In this document: positions 2,549 through 27,879 of the stretch, one piece after another
Layout: every line of letters begins with the position of its first letter
Position numbering within the stretch: the first letter of the stretch is position 1
Assembly: GCA_030715195.1 (NCBI GenBank)
Contig: JAUYVI010000004.1
Coordinates: 1 to 64,000 of the forward strand
Source: Dongia sedimenti
GTDB taxonomy: Bacteria; Pseudomonadota; Alphaproteobacteria; Dongiales; Dongiaceae
Length of the DNA stretch: 64,000 bases
Direction of reading: 5' to 3'
Translations under genes and position numbers: made by a program
The notes under the pieces: generated by a model
Database searches by the model: none
Seen by the model: only the letters and a program-made list of their open reading frames with translations
What the model was told of the DNA's origin: nothing

Positions 2549-4129
2549 TCACCAACGACCGTTGCCCGCCTTCATATCTTCCGCCTTGAGCAGGATCGGA
2601 AACCGCTCGCGCAGCTTCGCATCGGTCGCGGGATCGATGTAGGCCGGGTAGTGCGCGGACAGGATCTCCTGTGCGCGCACCCTGGCCGCCTGGCGAATGT
2701 CGGGGCTCCCTCGGCTCTGCCAGCCGTTCATCGAATCGCGATCGGCGATGTGCGGATAGATGTATTCGGTCTCCATCAGCTCCAAGGTCTTCGGCGAGCC
2801 GAGGTAATGGCCGGGACCGGCGATGGCGCGGGCGATCTCGTCGAAGCTCAGCGTCTCGTCGCTGACATCGATGCCTTTCAGCACGCGCTGGATGTTGCCG
2901 AGCATGTCGTTGTCGATGACCATCGCCTCGACCGAGCAGCCGATCAGGCTCGCCATCATGCCGCAGCACTCACTGACGTAATTGCCGCCGGCCACCGCGG
3001 CGAGGGTGACGGTGACGCCCTTCTCGTAGCCGGCCTGGGCGTCGATCGCCTTGGCGTCGGTCATGCCGGCGCCGACCGAGCTCGGCAGGTCGTAGAAGCG
3101 GCACATCTGCACGGCGGCCGCAGTGAGCAAGGCTTCCTCGCCGCCGCCGCCGGTGAAGGCGCCGGTGCGCAGGTCGGAGACGAAGGGCCAGATGCCGAAG
3201 GAGACCGGCAGGCCCGGCGTGATCAGGTTGCCCACGATCAAGGTGACCAGCGTCTCCGCGACGGTCTGCACCAGCGTGCCGGCGAGCGCCGCGGGCGCGG
3301 TGGCGCCGGCTTGCGCGGCGATCGCCGGATCGATGCAAAGGCCCAGCCGCGCATTGGCCACCATCACCTCGGCATTCTCCTTGCCGAAGCGCAGAGGTGA
3401 GACGATCGGGCAGCCGCCGATCACGCAGAACGGCCGCTCGACGAACTTGCCCTCGCCGCCGAGAAAGGCGTCGAAAAAGGAGATCAGCCTGGCGTGGTGC
3501 TCGACATTCTCGATCGAGACGCCGAAGGATTTCTGGGTGCCGGCGAGACAGGCATAGGCGACATTGAAATCCGAGGTCAGCCGGTCCGGCATGTCGGTCG
3601 CGACGATGGTCTGGCCGAAGCAATGCACATGCTCCAGCCGATCGGCCAGGCGCGCGAAGTCATAGAGGTCGAGCAGGGTGGAGGGCCGGTATTCGCCGCT
3701 GTGGAAATCCAGCACCTTGATCGCCTCGCCGGCGGTGGCGAAGTTCACGCGATCGCCGCCGATCTCCAGATCGTGCTCGGGCGAGACGCCATAGGCAGTG
3801 TAGCTCCGGCAGGCGCCGGCGAGAATGTCCTCGACCAGCGCGCGCGGGAAGCAGAGCCGCCCCTGGCTGTTGACCCAGCAGCCGCGCGGAAGAGCGACCT
3901 CCAGGATCTCCGGGATCGGTTCGCCGACCCCCAGCTTCTCCAGCACGTCGAGCGCGGTGTGGTGGATGCGCTTCATGTCTTGCTCGGAGAGCGGTCGATA
4001 GGTGCCGCCGGGCATGCCGGCGCGCACGGCACTGGCCTTCGGTCCGGACTTGCGCAGGGCACGCCGCGCCGCGCTGCCGCCGCGGGCGGCGCGGGGGCCG
4101 GGGCCGGAAATGTTGGTAGTGTCGGTCAT
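2549..4129 (-). CDS. Trimethylamine methyltransferase MttB-family protein, no pyrrolysine
   Basis: A 526-residue MttB-superfamily protein (TIM-barrel methyltransferase). True MttB uses pyrrolysine encoded by an in-frame amber codon. This frame is continuous at full length, so it belongs to the larger non-pyrrolysine branch, whose characterised members demethylate quaternary amines such as glycine betaine and pass the methyl group to a corrinoid protein. Conserved stretches include SEQDMKRIHHTALDVLEKLG near the N-terminus and the glycine-rich TGAFTGGGGEEAL region. A basic Ala/Gly/Arg-rich tail of about 35 residues starts the protein. GGGAGGTG lies just upstream of the ATG at 4129. No corrinoid protein or methyltetrahydrofolate enzyme is adjacent, so substrate and acceptor are unknown. 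Confidence 0.85.
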   Translation of the reverse strand: MTDTTNISGPGPRAARGGSAARRALRKSGPKASAVRAGMPGGTYRPLSEQDMKRIHHTALDVLEKLGVGEPIPEILEVALPRGCWVNSQGRLCFPRALVEDILAGACRSYTAYGVSPEHDLEIGGDRVNFATAGEAIKVLDFHSGEYRPSTLLDLYDFARLADRLEHVHCFGQTIVATDMPDRLTSDFNVAYACLAGTQKSFGVSIENVEHHARLISFFDAFLGGEGKFVERPFCVIGGCPIVSPLRFGKENAEVMVANARLGLCIDPAIAAQAGATAPAALAGTLVQTVAETLVTLIVGNLITPGLPVSFGIWPFVSDLRTGAFTGGGGEEALLTAAAVQMCRFYDLPSSVGAGMTDAKAIDAQAGYEKGVTVTLAAVAGGNYVSECCGMMASLIGCSVEAMVIDNDMLGNIQRVLKGIDVSDETLSFDEIARAIAGPGHYLGSPKTLELMETEYIYPHIADRDSMNGWQSRGSPDIRQAARVRAQEILSAHYPAYIDPATDAKLRERFPILLKAEDMKAGNGRW

Positions 4130-4206
4130 CGGCACCTCCCGCTGAATGAACATTCATTCTAGAGCCGGCGTCCGGCAGGGTGAAGGCTTGCAACGTCGCA
4201 CCCGGT

Positions 4207-4969: not shown

Positions 4970-7039
4970 ATGACCGCCCCCGCGCCCCGGCCGAATCCCG
5001 AGAACAAGCTCGGCGAATCCACCAGTCCCTATCTGCTGCAGCATCGGCACAACCCGGTGAACTGGCGGATTTGGGGCGAGGACGCGCTGGCCGAGGCGCA
5101 GCGGGACAACAAGCCGATCCTGCTGTCGGTCGGCTATGCGGCCTGCCATTGGTGCCATGTCATGGCCCATGAGAGTTTCGAGGACCATGACATCGCGGCG
5201 CTGATGAACCGGCTGTTCGTCAACATCAAGATCGACCGCGAGGAGCGGCCGGATCTCGACACGATCTATCAGCAGGCGCTGGCGCTGCTCGGCCAGCACG
5301 GCGGCTGGCCCTTGACCATGTTCCTGATGCCGGACGGGCGGCCGTTCTGGGGCGGGACCTATTTCCCGAAGGAAGCGCGCTACGGCAGGCCGGGCTTTGC
5401 CGACGTGCTGAACTTCGTCTCGGAGATCTACCACAAGGAACCGCAGAAGGTGACGACCAACGTCACCGCGATCGCCGAGGCGATGCAGAAGCTGTCGACA
5501 CCGAAGAGCGGCGGCGAAATCCCGGATGCGCTGCTCGACCAGATCGCCGAGCGCCTGCTGCAGGAAGTCGATCTGGAGAAGGGCGGCATCGGCTCGGCCC
5601 CGAAATTCCCGCAGCCGGCGATCTTCACCCTGCTGTGGCGCGCCTACAAGCGCTCGGGCCGGCCCGAGTTTCGCCATGCGGTCGACGTCACGCTGACCCG
5701 GATGGCGCAAGGCGGAATCTACGATCACCTCGGCGGCGGCCTGGCACGCTATTCGACCGATGCCGACTGGCTGGTGCCGCATTTCGAGAAGATGCTCTAC
5801 GACAATGCCGAGTTCATCGCGCTGCTGACCCTGGTCTGGCAGGAGACCCGGAACCCGCTCTACGAGGCGCGGGTGCGCGAGACCATCGACTGGGTCGTCG
5901 CCGAGATGCTGACCGGCCCCGACCGGAAGACCAACCACGCCTTCGCCGCCTCGCTGGACGCGGATTCCGAGGGCGAGGAGGGGCGCTTCTATGTCTGGAA
6001 CGCGCGCCAGATCGAAGGCGTGCTGGGCGAGGAGGCCGCCTTTTTCGCCGCGCATTACGACGTCACACCCGGCGGAAATTGGGAAGGCCTCACCATCCTC
6101 AATCGCTCCCAGAAACCGGAACTGCTGGACGCGGCGGGCGAAGCGCGCCTGCTCAAGGCGCGCCAGGCCTTGCTTTCGGCGCGGGCCGAGCGAGTGCGGC
6201 CGGGCTGGGACGACAAGGTGCTGGCCGAATGGAACGGGCTGATGATCGCGGCGCTGGTCGAAGCGGGCATGGCGTTCGAGGAACCGCATTGGATCGACCT
6301 CGCGCGCGACGCCTTCGCCTTCATCCGCCGGCACATGTTCAAGGACGGGCGTCTCTATCATGCCTGGCGCCAGGACAAGCTCGCCCATCCGGCGACGCTC
6401 GACGATCACGCCGACCTCGCCCGCGCGGCTCTGGCGCTCTATGAAGCGACCGCCAAGGTGCAGTATCTCGACGCCGCGCGCGAGTTGACCGCGCTGCTGG
6501 ACCGGCATTTCTGGGATCCGGCCCATGGCGGCTATTTCATGACCGCCGACGACACGCGCGACATGGTGGTGCGGCCGAAATCCGCCGGCGATAACGCGGT
6601 GCCGAACGGCAACGGGGTCATGGTCGGCGTGCTGGCGCGGCTGCATCTCCTGACCGGCGAGGCCCATTTCGAAGAGCGCGCGCGTGCCCTGGTCGCGGCC
6701 TTCAGCGGCGAGCTCGAGCGCAATTTCTTTCCGCTCGCAACCTTCCTCAACAACGCGGCCTTCCTCGCCCATGCGCTGGAAGTGGTGATCATCGGCGCCC
6801 ATGATGCGCCCGATACGCAGGCCCTGGTCACGGTGGTGATGCGGCATTCGCTCCCCGACCGGCTGCTGCAGGTGGTGCCGCCGGAGGCCGCGCTGCCGGA
6901 AGCGCATCCCGCCTTCGGCAAGACCCGGCAGAACGGCCAGGCGACCGCCTATCTTTGCCGGAACCGGAGCTGCGGCCTGCCGATCACCGAGCCGCAGGCG
7001 TTGGATGCGGCGCTATCGACCCGACTCACGGCGGTCTGA
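4970..7039 (+). CDS. DUF255 thioredoxin-fold / six-hairpin protein (YyaL/SSP411 family)
   Basis: A 689-residue protein of the family that includes bacterial YyaL and human SPATA20. The N-terminal thioredoxin-like domain (about residues 10-170) starts with the family signature [21 protein letters not shown] and keeps the C-x-x-C-like site in [15 protein letters not shown]. The rest is an all-helical barrel of the six-hairpin glycosidase type, with [44 protein letters not shown] and PSGNG-like motifs. The biochemical role is not established; a sugar-related or redox role has been proposed from the fold. Start ATG 4970 has GAAGGA upstream. It lies downstream of vapC and is probably transcribed separately. 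Confidence 0.88.
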
Positions 7040-7172
7040 CCCGAGTCGACGTGAAAATCCCGCGACTTTGTCACCGCACGCCCGATTTTCGCCTTAAGTT
7101 CGCCCGGATTGGGTTGCAGGTTCTTCACCGCTGCGCGACGATTCCGAGTCGCAATTCATATTGGGGACACCG

Positions 7173-7712
7173 ATGAAGATCAGGATGATGGCGGCGCTCG
7201 GCGCTGCGCTGCTGCTTGCCGCCTGCGGAAGCAGCGGATCCGACACCAGTGGATCGCTGCCGGCGACCGACACGACGCAGCTCTCGAACGCCGGCACCGG
7301 CTCGGTCGACGGCTCCGGCCTCGACAGCGGGATCCAGAGCGCGAGCATGGGGCCCGGCAGCGCCGGGGAATTCGAGACCAAGATCGGCAACACCATCCAC
7401 TTCGACACGGACAGCTATTCGCTGAACGCCGAGGCCCAGGGGATCCTGCAGAAGCAGGCAGCCTGGCTGCAGCAATATCCGCAGCACATGGTGACGATCG
7501 AAGGCCATGCCGACGAGCGCGGCACGCGCGAATACAACCTGGCGCTCGGCGACCGCCGCGCCACCACCGTGCTGAACTACCTGGTGGCGCTCGGCATCGA
7601 CAAGTCGCGGCTCTCCGAAGTCTCCTACGGCAAGGAGAAGCCGGTCTGCGTGGAGGCCAATGATTCCTGCTGGAGCCAGAACCGCCGCGGCGTGACCGCG
7701 CTCGGCAACTAA
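7173..7712 (+). CDS. pal: Pal-like peptidoglycan-associated lipoprotein (copy 1)
   Basis: A 179-residue lipoprotein. The signal sequence ends in the lipobox LLLAAC with Cys18 as the lipidation site, followed by a Ser/Gly/Thr-rich linker of about 50 residues. The C-terminal OmpA-like domain binds peptidoglycan: FDTDSYSL, then EGHADERGTREYNLALGDRR, which holds the Asp and Arg that grip diaminopimelate. The cysteine-containing CVEANDSCWSQNRR tail is typical of alphaproteobacterial Pal. Pal normally works with TolQRAB, but no tol gene is adjacent. ATG 7173 is chosen with GGGGAC upstream; a TTG 12 bases earlier is possible. A paralogue follows directly. Confidence 0.9.
   Translation: MKIRMMAALGAALLLAACGSSGSDTSGSLPATDTTQLSNAGTGSVDGSGLDSGIQSASMGPGSAGEFETKIGNTIHFDTDSYSLNAEAQGILQKQAAWLQQYPQHMVTIEGHADERGTREYNLALGDRRATTVLNYLVALGIDKSRLSEVSYGKEKPVCVEANDSCWSQNRRGVTALGN
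7492..7562 (+). repeat. 71-bp direct repeat, unit 1 (within pal copy 1)
   Basis: Positions 7492-7562 match 8000-8070 with a single mismatch, and positions 7506-7562 are identical to 8014-8070 over 57 bases. The repeat covers the peptidoglycan-binding core of the two tandem Pal genes. Identity includes third codon positions, unlike the flanking coding sequence. Confidence 0.9.
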
Positions 7713-7734
7713 CTCCCCACCACAAGCCATCGCC

Positions 7735-8220
7735 ATGCCTGTGCGAATATTGCCGGCGCTCGGCGCTGGGCTGATGCTGGCTGCCTGTGTCAGCAACGGC
7801 GCACCCGGCCAAGATGCCACCGAAGGCGTGGTGTCTGCCGGTGCGCTGACGCCGGGATCGATCGAGGACGAACCCTGTGGCTTCGGCAATATCGGCAACA
7901 CGCTCAATTTCACGACCGACAGCGCCGTTCTGACGGCGGAGGCGCAGAAATATGCGCAGCGCCAGGCATGCTGGATCCAACTCTACCCGCAACACAATCT
8001 GACGATCGAAGGTCATGCCGACGAGCGCGGCACGCGCGAATACAACCTGGCGCTCGGCGACCGCCGCGCCCAGGCGGTCATGGACTACTTCGTCGCGCTC
8101 GGCATCGACCGCAAACGCTTGAAGGCAATCAGCTACGGCAAGGAACGCCCGACCTGCACCGAGCCGACCGAGGCCTGCTGGAGCCAGAACCGCCGCACCG
8201 TGACGACGCTGGACGATTAG
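7735..8220 (+). CDS. Pal-like lipoprotein (copy 2)
   Basis: A 161-residue paralogue of the preceding Pal, 22 bases downstream and probably co-transcribed. It has a lipobox LMLAAC, a shorter linker, and the same OmpA-like domain (EGHADERGTREYNLALGDRR; CTEPTEACWSQNRR). The linker and the loop before the domain diverge strongly from copy 1, whereas the peptidoglycan-binding core is nearly identical at the DNA level. This suggests duplication followed by gene conversion or strong constraint. It may be a second tether with altered expression or Tol affinity. The reading frame is intact. Confidence 0.88.
   Translation: MPVRILPALGAGLMLAACVSNGAPGQDATEGVVSAGALTPGSIEDEPCGFGNIGNTLNFTTDSAVLTAEAQKYAQRQACWIQLYPQHNLTIEGHADERGTREYNLALGDRRAQAVMDYFVALGIDRKRLKAISYGKERPTCTEPTEACWSQNRRTVTTLDD
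8000..8070 (+). repeat. 71-bp direct repeat, unit 2 (within pal copy 2)
   Basis: This is the second copy of the repeat at 7492-7562, offset by 508 bp. Recombination between the units would fuse the two Pal genes into one. Confidence 0.9.
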
Positions 8221-8304
8221 CCGCGCTTTTTCCTCGCGGCCCGCACAAGCGAACCCTGTCTTGACGCGACGCTGCCGGCTCTGCCAGTGTCCTCGGTGTT
8301 ACAC

Positions 8305-8474
8305 GTCTTCAGGGCGGGGTGAAACTCCCCACCGGCGGTAGGGGCAAGTTCAAAAGCCCGAGCCCGCGAGCGCCGCGATCCTCCTGGGATAGCGGGTCAG
8401 CAGATCAGGTGAAACGCAGACGACCTGCGCCAGTCCTGAGCCGACGGTTAAAGTCCGGATGAAAGAAGACGAAG
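8305..8474 (+). ncRNA. FMN riboswitch (RFN element)
   Basis: All conserved blocks of the FMN aptamer are present in order. These are AGGGCGGGGTGAAACTCCCC then ACCGGCGGTA, GCCCGCGAGCG, GGTCAGCAGATCAGGTGAAA, and GCCGACGGTTAAAGTCCGGA, with AGAAGA at the closing stem. It sits directly upstream of ribB, a standard target. When FMN binds, expression of the riboflavin gene falls. A TTGACG at 8261-8266 could be the -35 box of its promoter, with no convincing -10. Confidence 0.97.
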
Positions 8475-8528
8475 CGTCATGACGCCCGTAATCCGCTTGC
8501 GCGGAGCGGTTCGTCAGAGCGTTCGCCC

Positions 8529-8571
8529 TGAAACGTTTATCGCAACCGTTGACCCTGCGAGGAGCGTTTCA
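8529..8571 (+). promoter_or_regulatory. Putative SD-sequestering stem of the FMN riboswitch
   Basis: Between aptamer and ribB the RNA can form a two-tier stem. TGAAACG (8529-8535) pairs with CGTTTCA (8565-8571) and, inside it, TCGCA (8540-8544) pairs with TGCGA (8556-8560). The ribB ribosome binding site GAGGAG (8559-8564) lies in the 3' side of this stem. No T-run follows, so control by translation rather than termination is likely. A perfect palindrome GCGTCATGACGC (8474-8485) sits between it and the aptamer. Confidence 0.5.
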
Positions 8572-8574
8572 CCC

Positions 8575-9207
8575 ATGACCACCCTTCTGAACCAGAGACT
8601 GTCAGCGGCCATTGCCGCCATGCGCGCCGGCATCCCGGTCTGCATGCTGGACGATCATGACCGCGAGGACGAGGCGGATCTCGTGGTCGCCGCCGAGACC
8701 CTGACCCGCGATGTGATGGCGCAGCTGATCCGGGCCGGTGGCCTGGTCTGCCTGGCGCTTGAGGACGAGCGGCTGAAGCAGCTGGATCTCCCGCCGATGG
8801 TGCCGGCCAATGACAGCTTGCACGGCACCGCCTTCACGGTTTCGATCGACGCACGGCACGGCGTTTCGACCGGCATCTCCGCCGCCGACCGGCTGGCGAC
8901 GGTGCGGGCCGCCATCGCGCCCAATGCCAAGCCCGCGGACCTGGCGCGGCCGGGTCATATCTTTCCGCTGCGCGCGGCACCCGGCGGCGTGCTGGTGCGG
9001 CGCGGCCATACCGAGGGCTCTGTGGATCTTGCCAAGCTCGCCGGGCTGATGCCGGCCGCGGTCATCGTCGAGCTGATGGACCGCGACGGCGAAATGCTGC
9101 GCAGCAAAGCCGCAAAAAACTTCGCCCGACGGCATGGCTTCCCGGTCATCACCATCGCCGAGATCGCCACCCATCGCGGCGCATCGGAACGGCGCGCCGC
9201 CGAGTAG
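8575..9207 (+). CDS. ribB: 3,4-dihydroxy-2-butanone-4-phosphate synthase
   Basis: RibB converts ribulose 5-phosphate to formate and the four-carbon precursor of riboflavin. The 210-residue protein has the acidic Mg2+ loop DDHDREDEADLVVAAE near the N-terminus, TVSIDARHGVSTGISAADR in the middle, and PGHIFPLRAAPGGVLVRRGHTE before the C-terminus. It has no fused GTP cyclohydrolase II domain, so it is the monofunctional form. ATG 8575 has GAGGAG 10 bases upstream. An in-frame ATG at 8479 would run into the aptamer's 3' edge and destroy the leader logic. Confidence 0.95.
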   Translation: MTTLLNQRLSAAIAAMRAGIPVCMLDDHDREDEADLVVAAETLTRDVMAQLIRAGGLVCLALEDERLKQLDLPPMVPANDSLHGTAFTVSIDARHGVSTGISAADRLATVRAAIAPNAKPADLARPGHIFPLRAAPGGVLVRRGHTEGSVDLAKLAGLMPAAVIVELMDRDGEMLRSKAAKNFARRHGFPVITIAEIATHRGASERRAAE

Positions 9208-21211: not shown

Positions 21212-22588
<1,377 letters not shown>

Positions 22589-23072
22589 AGGGTTTTGATG
22601 GTTCTGTGGTTGTTTGGGGAAACACGCGGAAAGGGAGACGGTTCTGGGGAGTGGGACGCGAGGCGACCAATTCCGGTTCGCCCGCTCCTTCAAGAGTGCC
22701 GGCCTTGATGACCGGTCTTCTGCTAAGACGCGCCTAGGCTCTGGTCCGATCCCCTAACGCCAAGGCCCAGGTTCTAGGGCCAAACACACGGATTTTCGTG
22801 GGGGAGCGAGGAGCGACCGGTCCTGCCAGGGTGCTATCTCTGCGGATACCGGAGTGGCCTTACAAAGTCAAATGGCAATTTCGTGCGCGGTTTCAAGGCC
22901 CCTTCCGGAGCGGGTTCTATCAGGGTCCCAAGTTCCACAGCGGGGCCAACCCGTTTGATGGCGATGGTTCCGATTGCAGTCCTATCGGCGGCGGACAACA
23001 CCCCGAGACTGCGCTACACTTATGATTGCGCCGATCGGGCTGGACGCGCGCTGCGGGGGGAGATCGGGGGAC
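22589..23072. other. Divergent intergenic region, rho leader side
   Basis: This 484-bp gap separates the leftward rho gene from a rightward membrane protein gene. Open frames crossing it lack ribosome binding sites and look like chance frames. On the rho side it should hold the long leader by which rho is often autoregulated. I see one small inverted repeat, GGCCC/GGGCC around 22765-22785, but no clear promoter boxes. Confidence 0.4.
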
Positions 23073-24516: not shown

Positions 24517-25569
24517 CTAGAGCTCCTCTCTTTGGCAGGCGCAGCGCGGCCAGGCGGCGCAGTATTGGGCGCCCGATCCCGGCTGCACGCGCTGCGGCTG
24601 TTGGAGTGCCGTCCGCACCAGCTGCGCGAGACCGGCGATGAAATCCGGTTCCTCCGACACGGTCGGCGCGCGTTCATAGGCCGCGGCGCCGCGTTTCTCG
24701 GCCAGATGCCGATACTCGATGTCGAGTTCCACCAATGTCTCCGAATGTTCGGAGACGAAGGCGATCGGCACCACGACAACGGCCTTGCCGGCCGACGCCG
24801 CTTCCTCGATCGAATGATCGGTCGGCGGACCCACCCATTCCAAGGGACCCACCCGGCTCTGGAACGCAACCATCCATTCCGGGACCGCGAGGCCGAGCGT
24901 ATCGACCACCGCATGCACCGTGGCCGAAACCTGCGCCACATAAGGATCGCCGCGATCGACGATCTTCTTCGGCAAGCCATGGGCCGAGAAGATCACGAAG
25001 ATCGGCGCCTTGGTCTTCGCCTTAGCCCGTGCGATTGCCGCCGCCGTGACCTTGGCCACCCCGGCGATGAATCCGGGCTCGGTCGGATAGCAGCAGATCA
25101 GCTTCCGCGGCGCGGTCAGCCCCTGGCGCTTCGCCGCGACCCGCCAGACCCGGTCCGAGGATTCAGTCGTCGTGGTCGAGAATTGCGGGTAGAGCGGCAG
25201 CAGGATCACCTCGTCCGGCGCGAAGCGCTTCACCGCCGCGACGGTTTCCTCGGTCAGCGGATGCCAGTAGCGCATGGCGATGAACACCTTCACCTCGCCG
25301 AGATCGCCGAGCGACGCCTGCAAGGCCGCAGCCTGGCGTTCGGTGTTCGGCAGGATCGGCGAACGCCCGCCCATCTCGGCATAGATCGCCCCGGCCGCCT
25401 TGGCGCGCCGGCTGGAGATCAGCTTGGCCAGCGGCCAGCGGAGGACTCCCGGCAGATCGATGATGTTCCGGTCGTTGAACAGGTTGAACAGGAACGGCTC
25501 GACCGCGGCCGGGGAATCCGGCCCGCCGAGATTGAACAGCACGATGGCGATGCGGCGGTTGCTGCTCAT
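24517..25569 (-). CDS. hemH: Ferrochelatase
   Basis: HemH inserts Fe2+ into protoporphyrin IX. The 350-residue protein begins RRIAIVLFNLGGPDSP and has the metal-site histidine in FSAHGLPKKIVDRGDPY, the ATAFV-like YPQFSTTTTESS region, and the C-terminal FVSEHSETLVELDIEYR with its conserved Glu/His. The last 15 residues carry a cysteine group, YCAAWPRCACQ, in addition to a CC pair in LICCYPTEP. Some alphaproteobacterial ferrochelatases, such as that of Caulobacter, hold a [2Fe-2S] cluster. The start overlaps the hemE stop (ATGA); a longer in-frame reading to 25758 lies inside hemE and is rejected. Confidence 0.96.
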   Translation of the reverse strand: MSSNRRIAIVLFNLGGPDSPAAVEPFLFNLFNDRNIIDLPGVLRWPLAKLISSRRAKAAGAIYAEMGGRSPILPNTERQAAALQASLGDLGEVKVFIAMRYWHPLTEETVAAVKRFAPDEVILLPLYPQFSTTTTESSDRVWRVAAKRQGLTAPRKLICCYPTEPGFIAGVAKVTAAAIARAKAKTKAPIFVIFSAHGLPKKIVDRGDPYVAQVSATVHAVVDTLGLAVPEWMVAFQSRVGPLEWVGPPTDHSIEEAASAGKAVVVVPIAFVSEHSETLVELDIEYRHLAEKRGAAAYERAPTVSEEPDFIAGLAQLVRTALQQPQRVQPGSGAQYCAAWPRCACQREEL

Positions 25570-26600
25570 CGGTAGGCGCGGACCGTCGCGATCAGCTCGG
25601 CCACATGCTCGGGCGGCGTTTCCGGCACGCAGCCATGGCCGAGGTTGAACACCAGCGGACCTCGGCCCAGCGCATCGAGGATTCCATGGATCGCCGTGCG
25701 CATGCCTTCGCCGCCAACCACCAGCCAGCGCGGGTCGAGATTGCCCTGCACCACGCATTTGCGCTGCACCGCGTCGCGGGCCCAGACCGGGTCGATATGC
25801 TGGTCGAGGCTGATCGCATCGCCGACACCGGCCTCCGCGAAATCGCGGTAACCCGTCCCGACGCCGCGCGGAAAGACGATCACCGGCACGCCCGGCGCAG
25901 TCCGCTTCAGCCGCGTGACGATCGCCCGGATCGGTTCCAGCGACCAGCGCCGCATTGCCGCGCTGTCCAAGGCGCCGGCCCAGGAATCGAAGATCTGCAG
26001 CACTTCGGCGCCGGCCGCGACCTGGGCCTCGAGATGCGCCGCCACCGCATCGACCAGCAGATCGATCAGCTTCTGGAAACTATCCGGCCGCCCGTAAGCC
26101 CAGAGCTTCGCCTTGGCGAAGTCCCGGCTCGAGCCGCCCTCGATCATGTAGCTGGTCAAGGTCCAGGGCGCCCCGGCAAAGCCGATCAGGGTCCGGTCCG
26201 CCGGCAGTTCCTGCTTCAGCCGACGCAGGGTCTCGTAGACCGGCTGCAAAGCCTCGATCATCCGCGTCGTCTCGAAACCCTTCAGCGCCTCGGTATCGAC
26301 GATCGGGTCCAGCAGCGGTCCGATCCCCTCCTCGAACCAGACCTTCTGCCCGAGCCCATACGGCACGACCAGGATGTCGGAGAACAGGATCGCCGCATCG
26401 AGGTCATAGCGCCGGATCGGCTGCAACGTCGCCTCGACCGCGAGATCCGGGGTGAAGCAGAAATCCAGGAAGTTCTTCGCCTCGGCCCGAAGCGCTCGGT
26501 ATTCCGGCAAATAGCGCCCGGCCTGGCGCATCAGCCAGATCGGGGTCCGGTCGCCTTTGCGGCCATGCAGGGTTTCGACGAGCGTCTTTGGGTGGGTCAT
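25566..26600 (-). CDS. hemE: Uroporphyrinogen decarboxylase
   Basis: HemE removes four carboxyl groups from uroporphyrinogen III to give coproporphyrinogen III. The 344-residue protein has the N-terminal signature PIWLMRQAGRYLPEYRALR, the RYDLDAAILFSDILVVP motif and the GFAGAPWTLTSYMIEGG loop. The C-terminal FNLGHGCVPETPPEHV is present. It is first in the leftward heme operon and directly borders the predicted replication origin, as in Caulobacter and Rickettsia. Confidence 0.98.
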   Translation of the reverse strand: MTHPKTLVETLHGRKGDRTPIWLMRQAGRYLPEYRALRAEAKNFLDFCFTPDLAVEATLQPIRRYDLDAAILFSDILVVPYGLGQKVWFEEGIGPLLDPIVDTEALKGFETTRMIEALQPVYETLRRLKQELPADRTLIGFAGAPWTLTSYMIEGGSSRDFAKAKLWAYGRPDSFQKLIDLLVDAVAAHLEAQVAAGAEVLQIFDSWAGALDSAAMRRWSLEPIRAIVTRLKRTAPGVPVIVFPRGVGTGYRDFAEAGVGDAISLDQHIDPVWARDAVQRKCVVQGNLDPRWLVVGGEGMRTAIHGILDALGRGPLVFNLGHGCVPETPPEHVAELIATVRAYR

Positions 26601-27036
26601 TCCAGGTGAGCCAGGCAGAGTTTCGATCCTCTACTCTTACACTTAAAGAGAATCTCTAGAGAGAGGTAGATGAGGTAGATGGGCGGTGAATCATCGTAAT
26701 CCCCGGTCTCCGTCTTTCTTGCCCGCTTTGCATGCGGATGGAATCCGAGACGGGTGGGCGTCGAATCAAAGGATAAGACCGGGAGAATCCGCAGCCGCGT
26801 TGATGCCGAATAGCGGGGATAACCGGGATAAAGCGCGCCTGGAAACTATCCCCGTGATTCAGATGATCCATTGCGCCGGCGGTGCCGGGGGTTGATCCGG
26901 GAGATGGGCAATGCCATGACTGGGGACAAGTTGCCGCAGTGGATAAACCGGCCTGTTGTCCCCGGCCTGGTGGGGACTTATCCCGGACTTGTCCCCGGAC
27001 CGTTCCGGGGCTTTCCAACGAGCGATTGGGCGAGCG
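26601..27036. other. Predicted chromosomal replication origin (oriC)
   Basis: A 436-bp non-coding gap lies between hemE and the PEP-synthase regulator, the position of the origin in Caulobacter and Rickettsia. The hemE-proximal part is AT-rich (26641-26700 counts 25 G/C in 60), while the DNA around it is far richer in GC. The distal part has five GGATAA/TTATCC cores at 26771, 26817, 26826, 26941 and 26978. AGTGGATAA (26938-26946) matches the DnaA box TTATCCACA at 8 of 9 positions on the other strand, and TGATCCATT (26864-26872) resembles the Caulobacter-type box. Six GANTC methylation sites fall in 26650-26860. Genes run outward on both sides. Confidence 0.75.
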
Positions 27037-27879
27037 ATGCCGACCGGCTTTCACATCCATCTGGTCTCCGATGCCACCGGCGAGACGCTGAACAGCATCA
27101 CCCGCGCGTGCCTGGTGCAGTTCGAGGACGTGACCGCGATCGAGCACAGCTGGACCCTGATTCGCACCACCGGCCAGATGCAAAAGGTGCTGCAGGGCAT
27201 CCAGCAGAATCCCGGGCTGGTGCTCTACACCATCGTCGATGACAAGCTGCGCAACCTGCTGGTCTCGAGCTGCCGCGATCTCGGCGTCACCTTGGTTCCC
27301 GTGCTGGACCCGGTGATGACGGCCTTGGCCGCGCATTTCGGCCAGACCGCCAAGGGCCTTTCCGGCCGCCAGCACATCATGGACCAGGGTTATTTTCACC
27401 GCATCGAGGCGATGGACTACGCCCTTTCCCATGACGACGGCCAGTCGGCCCGCAATTACGAGGCCGCCGACGTGATCCTGGTCGGGGTCAGCCGCTCCTC
27501 GAAGACCCCGACCTGCGTCTATCTCGCCAACCGCGGCATCAAGGCGGCCAATGTGCCGATCGTCCCCGGCTGTCCGCTGCCGGCCGAGCTCTTCACCATC
27601 AAGAATCCGATGGTGGTCGGTCTCACCAAGGATCCCGGCCAGCTGGTGCAGATCCGCAAGAACCGGCTGCAGATGCTCAACAGTGACGAGGAGTCCGATT
27701 ACGTGGACCTCAACGCCGTGCGCGAGGAGGTGGTCCAGGCCCGCCGCCTTTGTGCCGAGCACGGCTGGCACGTCCTCGACGTGACCCGCCGCTCGATCGA
27801 GGAGACCGCCGCCACGATCATCCAGCTGCTGCAGGAACACCGCGAAAAACGCGGCCTCGCCGCGGTGCGCGAAGCCTGA
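27037..27879 (+). CDS. PEP synthase / PPDK regulatory kinase-phosphorylase (DUF299)
   Basis: A 280-residue bifunctional ADP-dependent kinase and phosphate-dependent pyrophosphorylase that turns PEP synthase or pyruvate phosphate dikinase off and on. It begins FHIHLVSDATGETLNSI, has the P-loop VGVSRSSKTPTCVYLANRG, and ends with HVLDVTRRSIEETAATI, all family hallmarks. This family sits immediately right of the origin in Caulobacter. Start ATG 27037 matches family N-termini; in-frame sequence back to 26956 belongs to the origin gap. Confidence 0.95.
   Translation: MPTGFHIHLVSDATGETLNSITRACLVQFEDVTAIEHSWTLIRTTGQMQKVLQGIQQNPGLVLYTIVDDKLRNLLVSSCRDLGVTLVPVLDPVMTALAAHFGQTAKGLSGRQHIMDQGYFHRIEAMDYALSHDDGQSARNYEAADVILVGVSRSSKTPTCVYLANRGIKAANVPIVPGCPLPAELFTIKNPMVVGLTKDPGQLVQIRKNRLQMLNSDEESDYVDLNAVREEVVQARRLCAEHGWHVLDVTRRSIEETAATIIQLLQEHREKRGLAAVREA

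Follow-up and report, generated by a model that had tools for sequence, protein, structure and literature searches.

A predicted chromosomal replication origin of the Caulobacter/Rickettsia type between hemE and ppsR in Dongia sedimenti

The 436-bp gap between the divergent genes hemE and ppsR of Dongia sedimenti is very probably the DnaA-dependent chromosomal oriC of this Dongia-like alphaproteobacterium, in the same place as the Caulobacter Cori. It lies in the 64,000-nucleotide stretch of DNA that we analysed (the window), which forms the first 64 kb of a 756,414-bp contig (C21) in a 6.13-Mb genome of 26 contigs. A preliminary description of the window had read the gap as an origin of the Caulobacter/Rickettsia type, and this reading is supported by synteny, a dense group of DnaA-like cores, the persistence of the gap across relatives, and GC skew, KOPS polarity and nearby parS sites in relatives. 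As a class assignment it is well supported and not novel, the location having been described already (PMC1914354, in excerpt). The predicted origin is ordinary because it occupies the known site of its class, although its DnaA sites are looser than usual.

The flanking gene order of the preliminary description was borne out by NCBIfam profiles. To the left of the gap are rho, hemJ, hemH and hemE, all on the reverse strand, and to the right are ppsR, maf, aroE, coaE, a racemase gene and dnaQ, all on the forward strand, so that the genes on both sides point away from the gap (Table 1). The maf and glutamate-racemase (murI) matches scored under the curated cut-offs of their models. Matches to PpsR in relatives begin at residues 1–7 of the reading that starts at 27037. 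By PpsR, a Dongia mobilis MAG is the nearest relative with a name (72% identity, in a comparison that possibly excluded records of the genome itself). As described earlier, dnaA is not in the window: the sole match to the DnaA C-terminal domain in the genome is on another contig (C12:671823). A search of plasmids for similar DNA gave no match. Elsewhere in the window, an FMN riboswitch immediately precedes ribB (8301–9207, forward strand). An MttB-family trimethylamine-methyltransferase-like gene (2549–4153, reverse strand, below cut-off) overlaps an Rfam PYLIS_3 match (2961–3064, reverse strand); since that match sits in a frame that is open without a stop, the gene is probably a relative without pyrrolysine.

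Table 1. Features of the predicted origin and its flanks (window coordinates)
Feature	Position	Strand	Basis
rho	21212–22693	-	TIGR00767
hemE, left flank	25566–26600	-	TIGR01464, 398 bits, above cut-off
Predicted oriC, hemE/ppsR intergenic gap	26601–27036		gene order, core cluster, conservation in relatives
AT-rich block by hemE, candidate unwinding element	26619–26680		lowest-GC 40-mer (26619) and 60-mer (26621) of the gap
Six GANTC (putative CcrM) sites	26650–26860		starts 26650, 26688, 26741, 26763, 26785, 26856
Conserved block GGTGAATCATCGTAATCCCCGG, includes GANTC site	26685–26706		alignment, own and six same-genus gaps
TTATCC core (TTATCCTTT)	26771–26776	-	
TTATCC core (TTATCCCCG)	26817–26822	-	
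TTATCC core (TTATCCCGG)	26826–26831	-	
Conserved block CTATCCCCGTGATTCAG, relaxed DnaA-like core touching GANTC site	26846–26862	+	alignment, same-genus gaps
TTGTCC core (TTGTCCCCA)	26924–26929	-	
8-of-9 DnaA box TTATCCACT	26938–26946	-	search with ≤1 mismatch
TTGTCC core (TTGTCCCCGG)	26956–26961	+	
TTATCC core (TTATCCCGG)	26978–26983	+	
TTGTCC core (TTGTCCCCGG)	26989–26994	+	
ppsR (DUF299/COG1806), right flank, ATG start	27037–27879	+	NF003742, 339 bits, above cut-off

Our searches used consensus patterns for DnaA boxes, KOPS (GGGNAGGG), parS, CtrA and IHF. The five GGATAA/TTATCC cores noted previously are present and span 213 bp (26771–26983). Counting either strand, the 64-kb window holds 10 such cores against a chance mean of 7.9, and five of the 10 fall inside the gap; the number in the window does not exceed chance, and it is their clustering that stands out. 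Relaxing the core to TTRTCC gives eight in the gap, within a span of 224 bp, whereas 0.18 are expected in the gap from a genome sample in which the maximum is four per 436 bp. This sample covers 909 kb of the 6.13-Mb genome in 46 stretches (38 on C21 and C22, eight on C1, C2, C12, C20 and C23). Across the whole genome, the spaced pair GGGAYAA-N2-32-GGGAYAA has four matches, three of them in the gap (from five cores), against two for the backward control. The sole close GGGAYAA pair of the genome outside the gap is at C20:6042-6074 (L242 6042-6074).

The 8-of-9 DnaA box, also noted previously, has no companion in the gap at up to one mismatch. It is weak evidence when taken alone, because dinucleotide shuffling of the gap also produces at least one such box in 14 of 200 trials, and the four boxes with one mismatch in the whole window are not unusual against 2.8 expected. 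We rejected the perfect DnaA box TTATCCACA as an origin marker in this genome: there are 22 copies, the same number as for the control, and none in the gap. Two of the 22, on opposite strands and 0.6 kb apart (G000:C22:459268-459901; L241 9269-9902), form the closest such pair and mark a candidate DnaA-binding locus. The word GTGATTCANNTGATCC, taken from the gap, has its one exact genome match there and 457 matches at up to three mismatches, and was otherwise uninformative. The gap holds a cluster of relaxed, predicted DnaA-type sites unmatched in the sampled genome, as in a Cori-type oriC.

We compared the DnaA proteins for a possible change in specificity. The motif GGRDHTTVMHA, which we take to be the DnaA recognition motif, is identical in the protein of D. 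sedimenti and in 13 of 16 others (G025, G011 and G028 differ). An altered DnaA specificity behind the relaxed boxes is therefore unsupported, and because the motif is unchanged we read these boxes as probably low-affinity sites working within an array.

The AT-rich block described beside hemE is likewise there. The 60-mer at 26621 has 38% GC, the second-lowest value in the window (tied with one other place), where 2-kb bins have 61–71% GC. The block aligns to one conserved in six same-genus genomes, and the hemE promoter may lie within it as well. A BUS unwinding system would show at least three successive DnaA-trios beside a DnaA box. On a strict reading of the DnaA-trio, the gap has no run of three consecutive [TA]A[GA]; the published BUS search pattern is the looser (NAN)x3 (PMC8287927, in excerpt).

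The gap is conserved among relatives. PpsR was detected in 38 of the 61 genomes searched (own included), and loci were built for the best 30 of the 38. Among the 29 other loci, 28 have hemE divergent from ppsR over 318–890 bp, and in the 29th (G014) it is still divergent at about 1.8 kb. The spacer separating ppsR from hemE in G014 (L246, about 6876-8416) includes roughly 1.3 kb missing from G010 of the same genus, which reflects either an insertion at or beside the predicted origin or a loss in G010. In a set of 80 named loci, the divergent hemE/ppsR pair is present in 72, one of these with a gap of 2366 bp. In four of the other eight, a contig end falls no more than 560 bp from ppsR. The last four (L122, L128, L135 and L142) have about 4 kb of sequence upstream of ppsR in which hemE was not matched, and are possibly rearranged or relocated origins. 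In the single-contig relative G025, the ppsR match (G025:C1:3605840-3606640) contains one in-frame TAG.

Sequence elements within the gap are conserved as well. At up to one mismatch, the 29 gaps (that of D. sedimenti among them) contain TTATCCACA 69 times in total, compared with a shuffle mean of 2.3, a 30-fold excess (the top of 200 shuffles was seven), although the 29 gaps are not 29 independent trials because the loci are related. The count per gap is one in D. sedimenti and zero in L023, L024, L028 and L033. The likeness to six same-genus gaps (G001–G006) consists of conserved blocks, including the AT-rich block, and arrays of DnaA-like sites: across the seven gaps we aligned the AT-rich block on the hemE side, GGTGAATC...AATCCCCG, a TATCCCCGTGATTCAG-like block and a right-hand box array. 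Each of the six carries one perfect TTATCCACA, whereas the gap in the window has none. In the right-hand block, TTATCAAC is found in five and TGTGGA in all six, where the window has TTGTCCCCGG/TTATCCCGG. The G004 gap is identical to that of the Dongia mobilis MAG (L099) across the 300 bp compared.

Cumulative GC skew had been proposed as a check on the location. In the genome itself, which is in 26 contigs, the skew is uninformative, with no switch at 27 kb (−0.012 left and −0.009 right of the gap); in relatives the skew is consistent with an origin at this site, at limited resolution. Sampled skew along the contigs was uninformative (+0.0005 for C21, −0.005 for C22). The four KOPS inside the window face the gap, which is the wrong way (2:0 left, 0:2 right). 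Sampled KOPS point outward from the contig starts (37:15 for C21, counted past 60 kb, and 36:19 for C22); these polarity figures are drawn from samples because the genome-wide places among the matches listed were all on C1. Genome-wide totals are 467 forward and 361 reverse. Both perfect parS copies lie with mnmE-mnmG-rsmG-parA-parB at the start of C22, so the starts of C21 and C22 may face each other as neighbours.

We sampled three single-contig relatives in 20-kb pieces (G010, 40; G025, 20; G028, 20), with two G028 samples set beside ppsR, which sharpens the picture for that genome. In these relatives GC skew or KOPS agree with an origin located at ppsR or close to it, in one of them roughly. 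In G028, the KOPS minimum (2.211 Mb) and the skew minimum (2.125 Mb) accompany ppsR at 2.209 Mb. The picture is clean in G025, where the turning point of both skew and KOPS falls somewhere from 3.43 Mb to the contig end/start; ppsR, the only marker used, is at 3.606 Mb. The best symmetric split of G010 is at 5.575–5.625 Mb and ppsR is at 5.592 Mb; the mean-corrected skew minimum (0.235 Mb) and the KOPS minimum (5.185 Mb) fall 0.5 and 0.4 Mb either side of ppsR. The share of symmetric splits whose fit to the skew equals or betters that of ppsR is 1.3% in G010, 6.7% in G025 and 15% in G028. All 10 relatives chosen have a parS group (GTTYCACGTGRAAC) upstream of ppsR at a distance of 6 to 28.5 kb. 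For the nine in which we saw hemE, this is the hemE side. Extra single parS copies occur elsewhere in G001 and G006. The parS position and skew of the relatives are direct observations, as are the anatomy and conservation of the gap.

We compared the gap to origins described in the literature. hemE and COG1806 flank both the Caulobacter crescentus Cori and the predicted origin of Rickettsia prowazekii (PMC1914354, in excerpt). The likeness to Cori extends from this hemE-COG1806/DUF299 position to several DnaA sites and an AT-rich region (PMC1914354, in excerpt) and to GANTC sites, which were already known at the Caulobacter origin (PMC3973325, in excerpt). DnaA boxes and CtrA sites number five each in Cori, which also carries a single IHF site (PMC1914354, in excerpt), whereas the gap in the window has one 8-of-9 DnaA box, the rest being relaxed, and neither a full CtrA site nor a strict IHF site. 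The CtrA consensus TTAA-N7-TTAA is absent from the gap and from all 15 family gaps, and 11 of 101 gaps have one. Since the Ehrlichia ruminantium origin also lacks CtrA sites unless two mismatches are allowed (PMC1914354, in excerpt), we take CtrA sites to be a trait of some members only. The strict IHF consensus, perhaps too strict, matched two of the 101 gaps, the gap of D. sedimenti not among them. The R. prowazekii origin is 384 bp long with 82.6% AT, whereas the gap is 436 bp long with 42% AT.

We weighed other explanations for these observations. That the gap is a mere divergent hemE/ppsR promoter region, regulated by DnaA or CcrM, with the active origin elsewhere, is very improbable. Both genes do start at the gap, the skew of the genome itself is flat, and GANTC enrichment is known for alphaproteobacterial intergenic regions (PMC3973325, in excerpt). 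However, skew, KOPS and parS position in relatives indicate the hemE/ppsR gap, the core density is unequalled in the 909 kb sampled, and the Caulobacter Cori sits in the same gap (PMC1914354, in excerpt).

An origin at dnaA, as in many other bacteria, is extremely improbable. The gene lies near position 1 kb in each of the single-contig relatives G010, G014, G025 and G028, and sampled skew separates dnaA and ppsR poorly in G010 and G025, because they are just 0.27 and 0.14 Mb apart. In G028, however, both the skew minimum and the KOPS minimum lie next to ppsR and some 1.2 Mb away from dnaA, and TTRTCC cores near dnaA in the D. sedimenti genome are unclustered (11 across 20 kb). The chance that the window belongs to a secondary replicon, and hence does not carry the main chromosomal origin, is close to negligible: the 6.1-Mb genome is in 26 contigs with two ParB-family matches above cut-off, but hemE and ppsR share single 5.9-Mb contigs in G010 and G014, and rho, dnaQ and the hem genes belong to the chromosomal core.

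For the preferred reading of the gap as oriC, we infer DnaA binding, melting and initiation from its anatomy. DnaA-ATP would bind about eight relaxed boxes at 26771–26994 and then oligomerise, the array on the ppsR side serving as the DnaA platform. The AT-rich block on the hemE side (about 26619–26680) would act as the unwinding element, and after its melting by DnaA the replicative helicase would load there. Two forks would depart, one via hemE and rho and the other via ppsR and dnaQ, and ParB at the nearby parS would then separate the new origins.

The six GANTC sites of the gap compare with a shuffle mean of 2.6 (at least six in 68 of 2000 shuffles) and with 2.2 per kb in the sampled genome; at least six were found in two of 523 sampled windows of similar GC. 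Density of GANTC alone was rejected as an origin mark, as sampled stretches reach eight. Seven GANTC sites fall in about 430 bp from 30619, in the dnaQ region of the window, exceeding the six of the predicted origin. With the duplicate L099 and the 2366-bp gap removed, GANTC ranks first by z-score for over-representation among 16 palindromes of this kind, both in 15 family gaps (92 vs 43) and in 84 other gaps (262 vs 146). The genome encodes one N6_N4_Mtase plus RAMA protein, presumably the CcrM architecture, and among 14 control genomes only Caulobacter had a RAMA match. A composite TTATCCMC-n-GATTCA-like element, in which a relaxed DnaA box abuts GANTC, occurs in 10 of the 15 family gaps. 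As a class-wide feature, a DnaA-like core with a GATTCA-like word was rejected, because 15 of the 101 gaps have it and 11 of those belong to the same family (including the duplicate L099).

It is conceivable, if unlikely, that in this family the CcrM-like methylation state after each round gates DnaA loading at the composite elements. Such gating would be an alphaproteobacterial counterpart of GATC/SeqA control. It would also be lineage-specific wiring, because Caulobacter CcrM is reported as not required for initiation control, with overexpression adding chromosome copies (PMC3973325, in excerpt). In Agrobacterium, CcrM acts on ori2 via repABC with no clear effect seen on the DnaA-dependent ori1 (PMC11514494, in excerpt).

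Our analysis places a predicted oriC in the Dongia lineage, for which no title on a replication origin was among the literature matches listed. It supports hemE/ppsR as an old origin site, one that can persist without perfect DnaA boxes or full CtrA sites. The combination of relaxed boxes with an unchanged DnaA motif makes this origin a compact test of how far DnaA-box sequences can drift.
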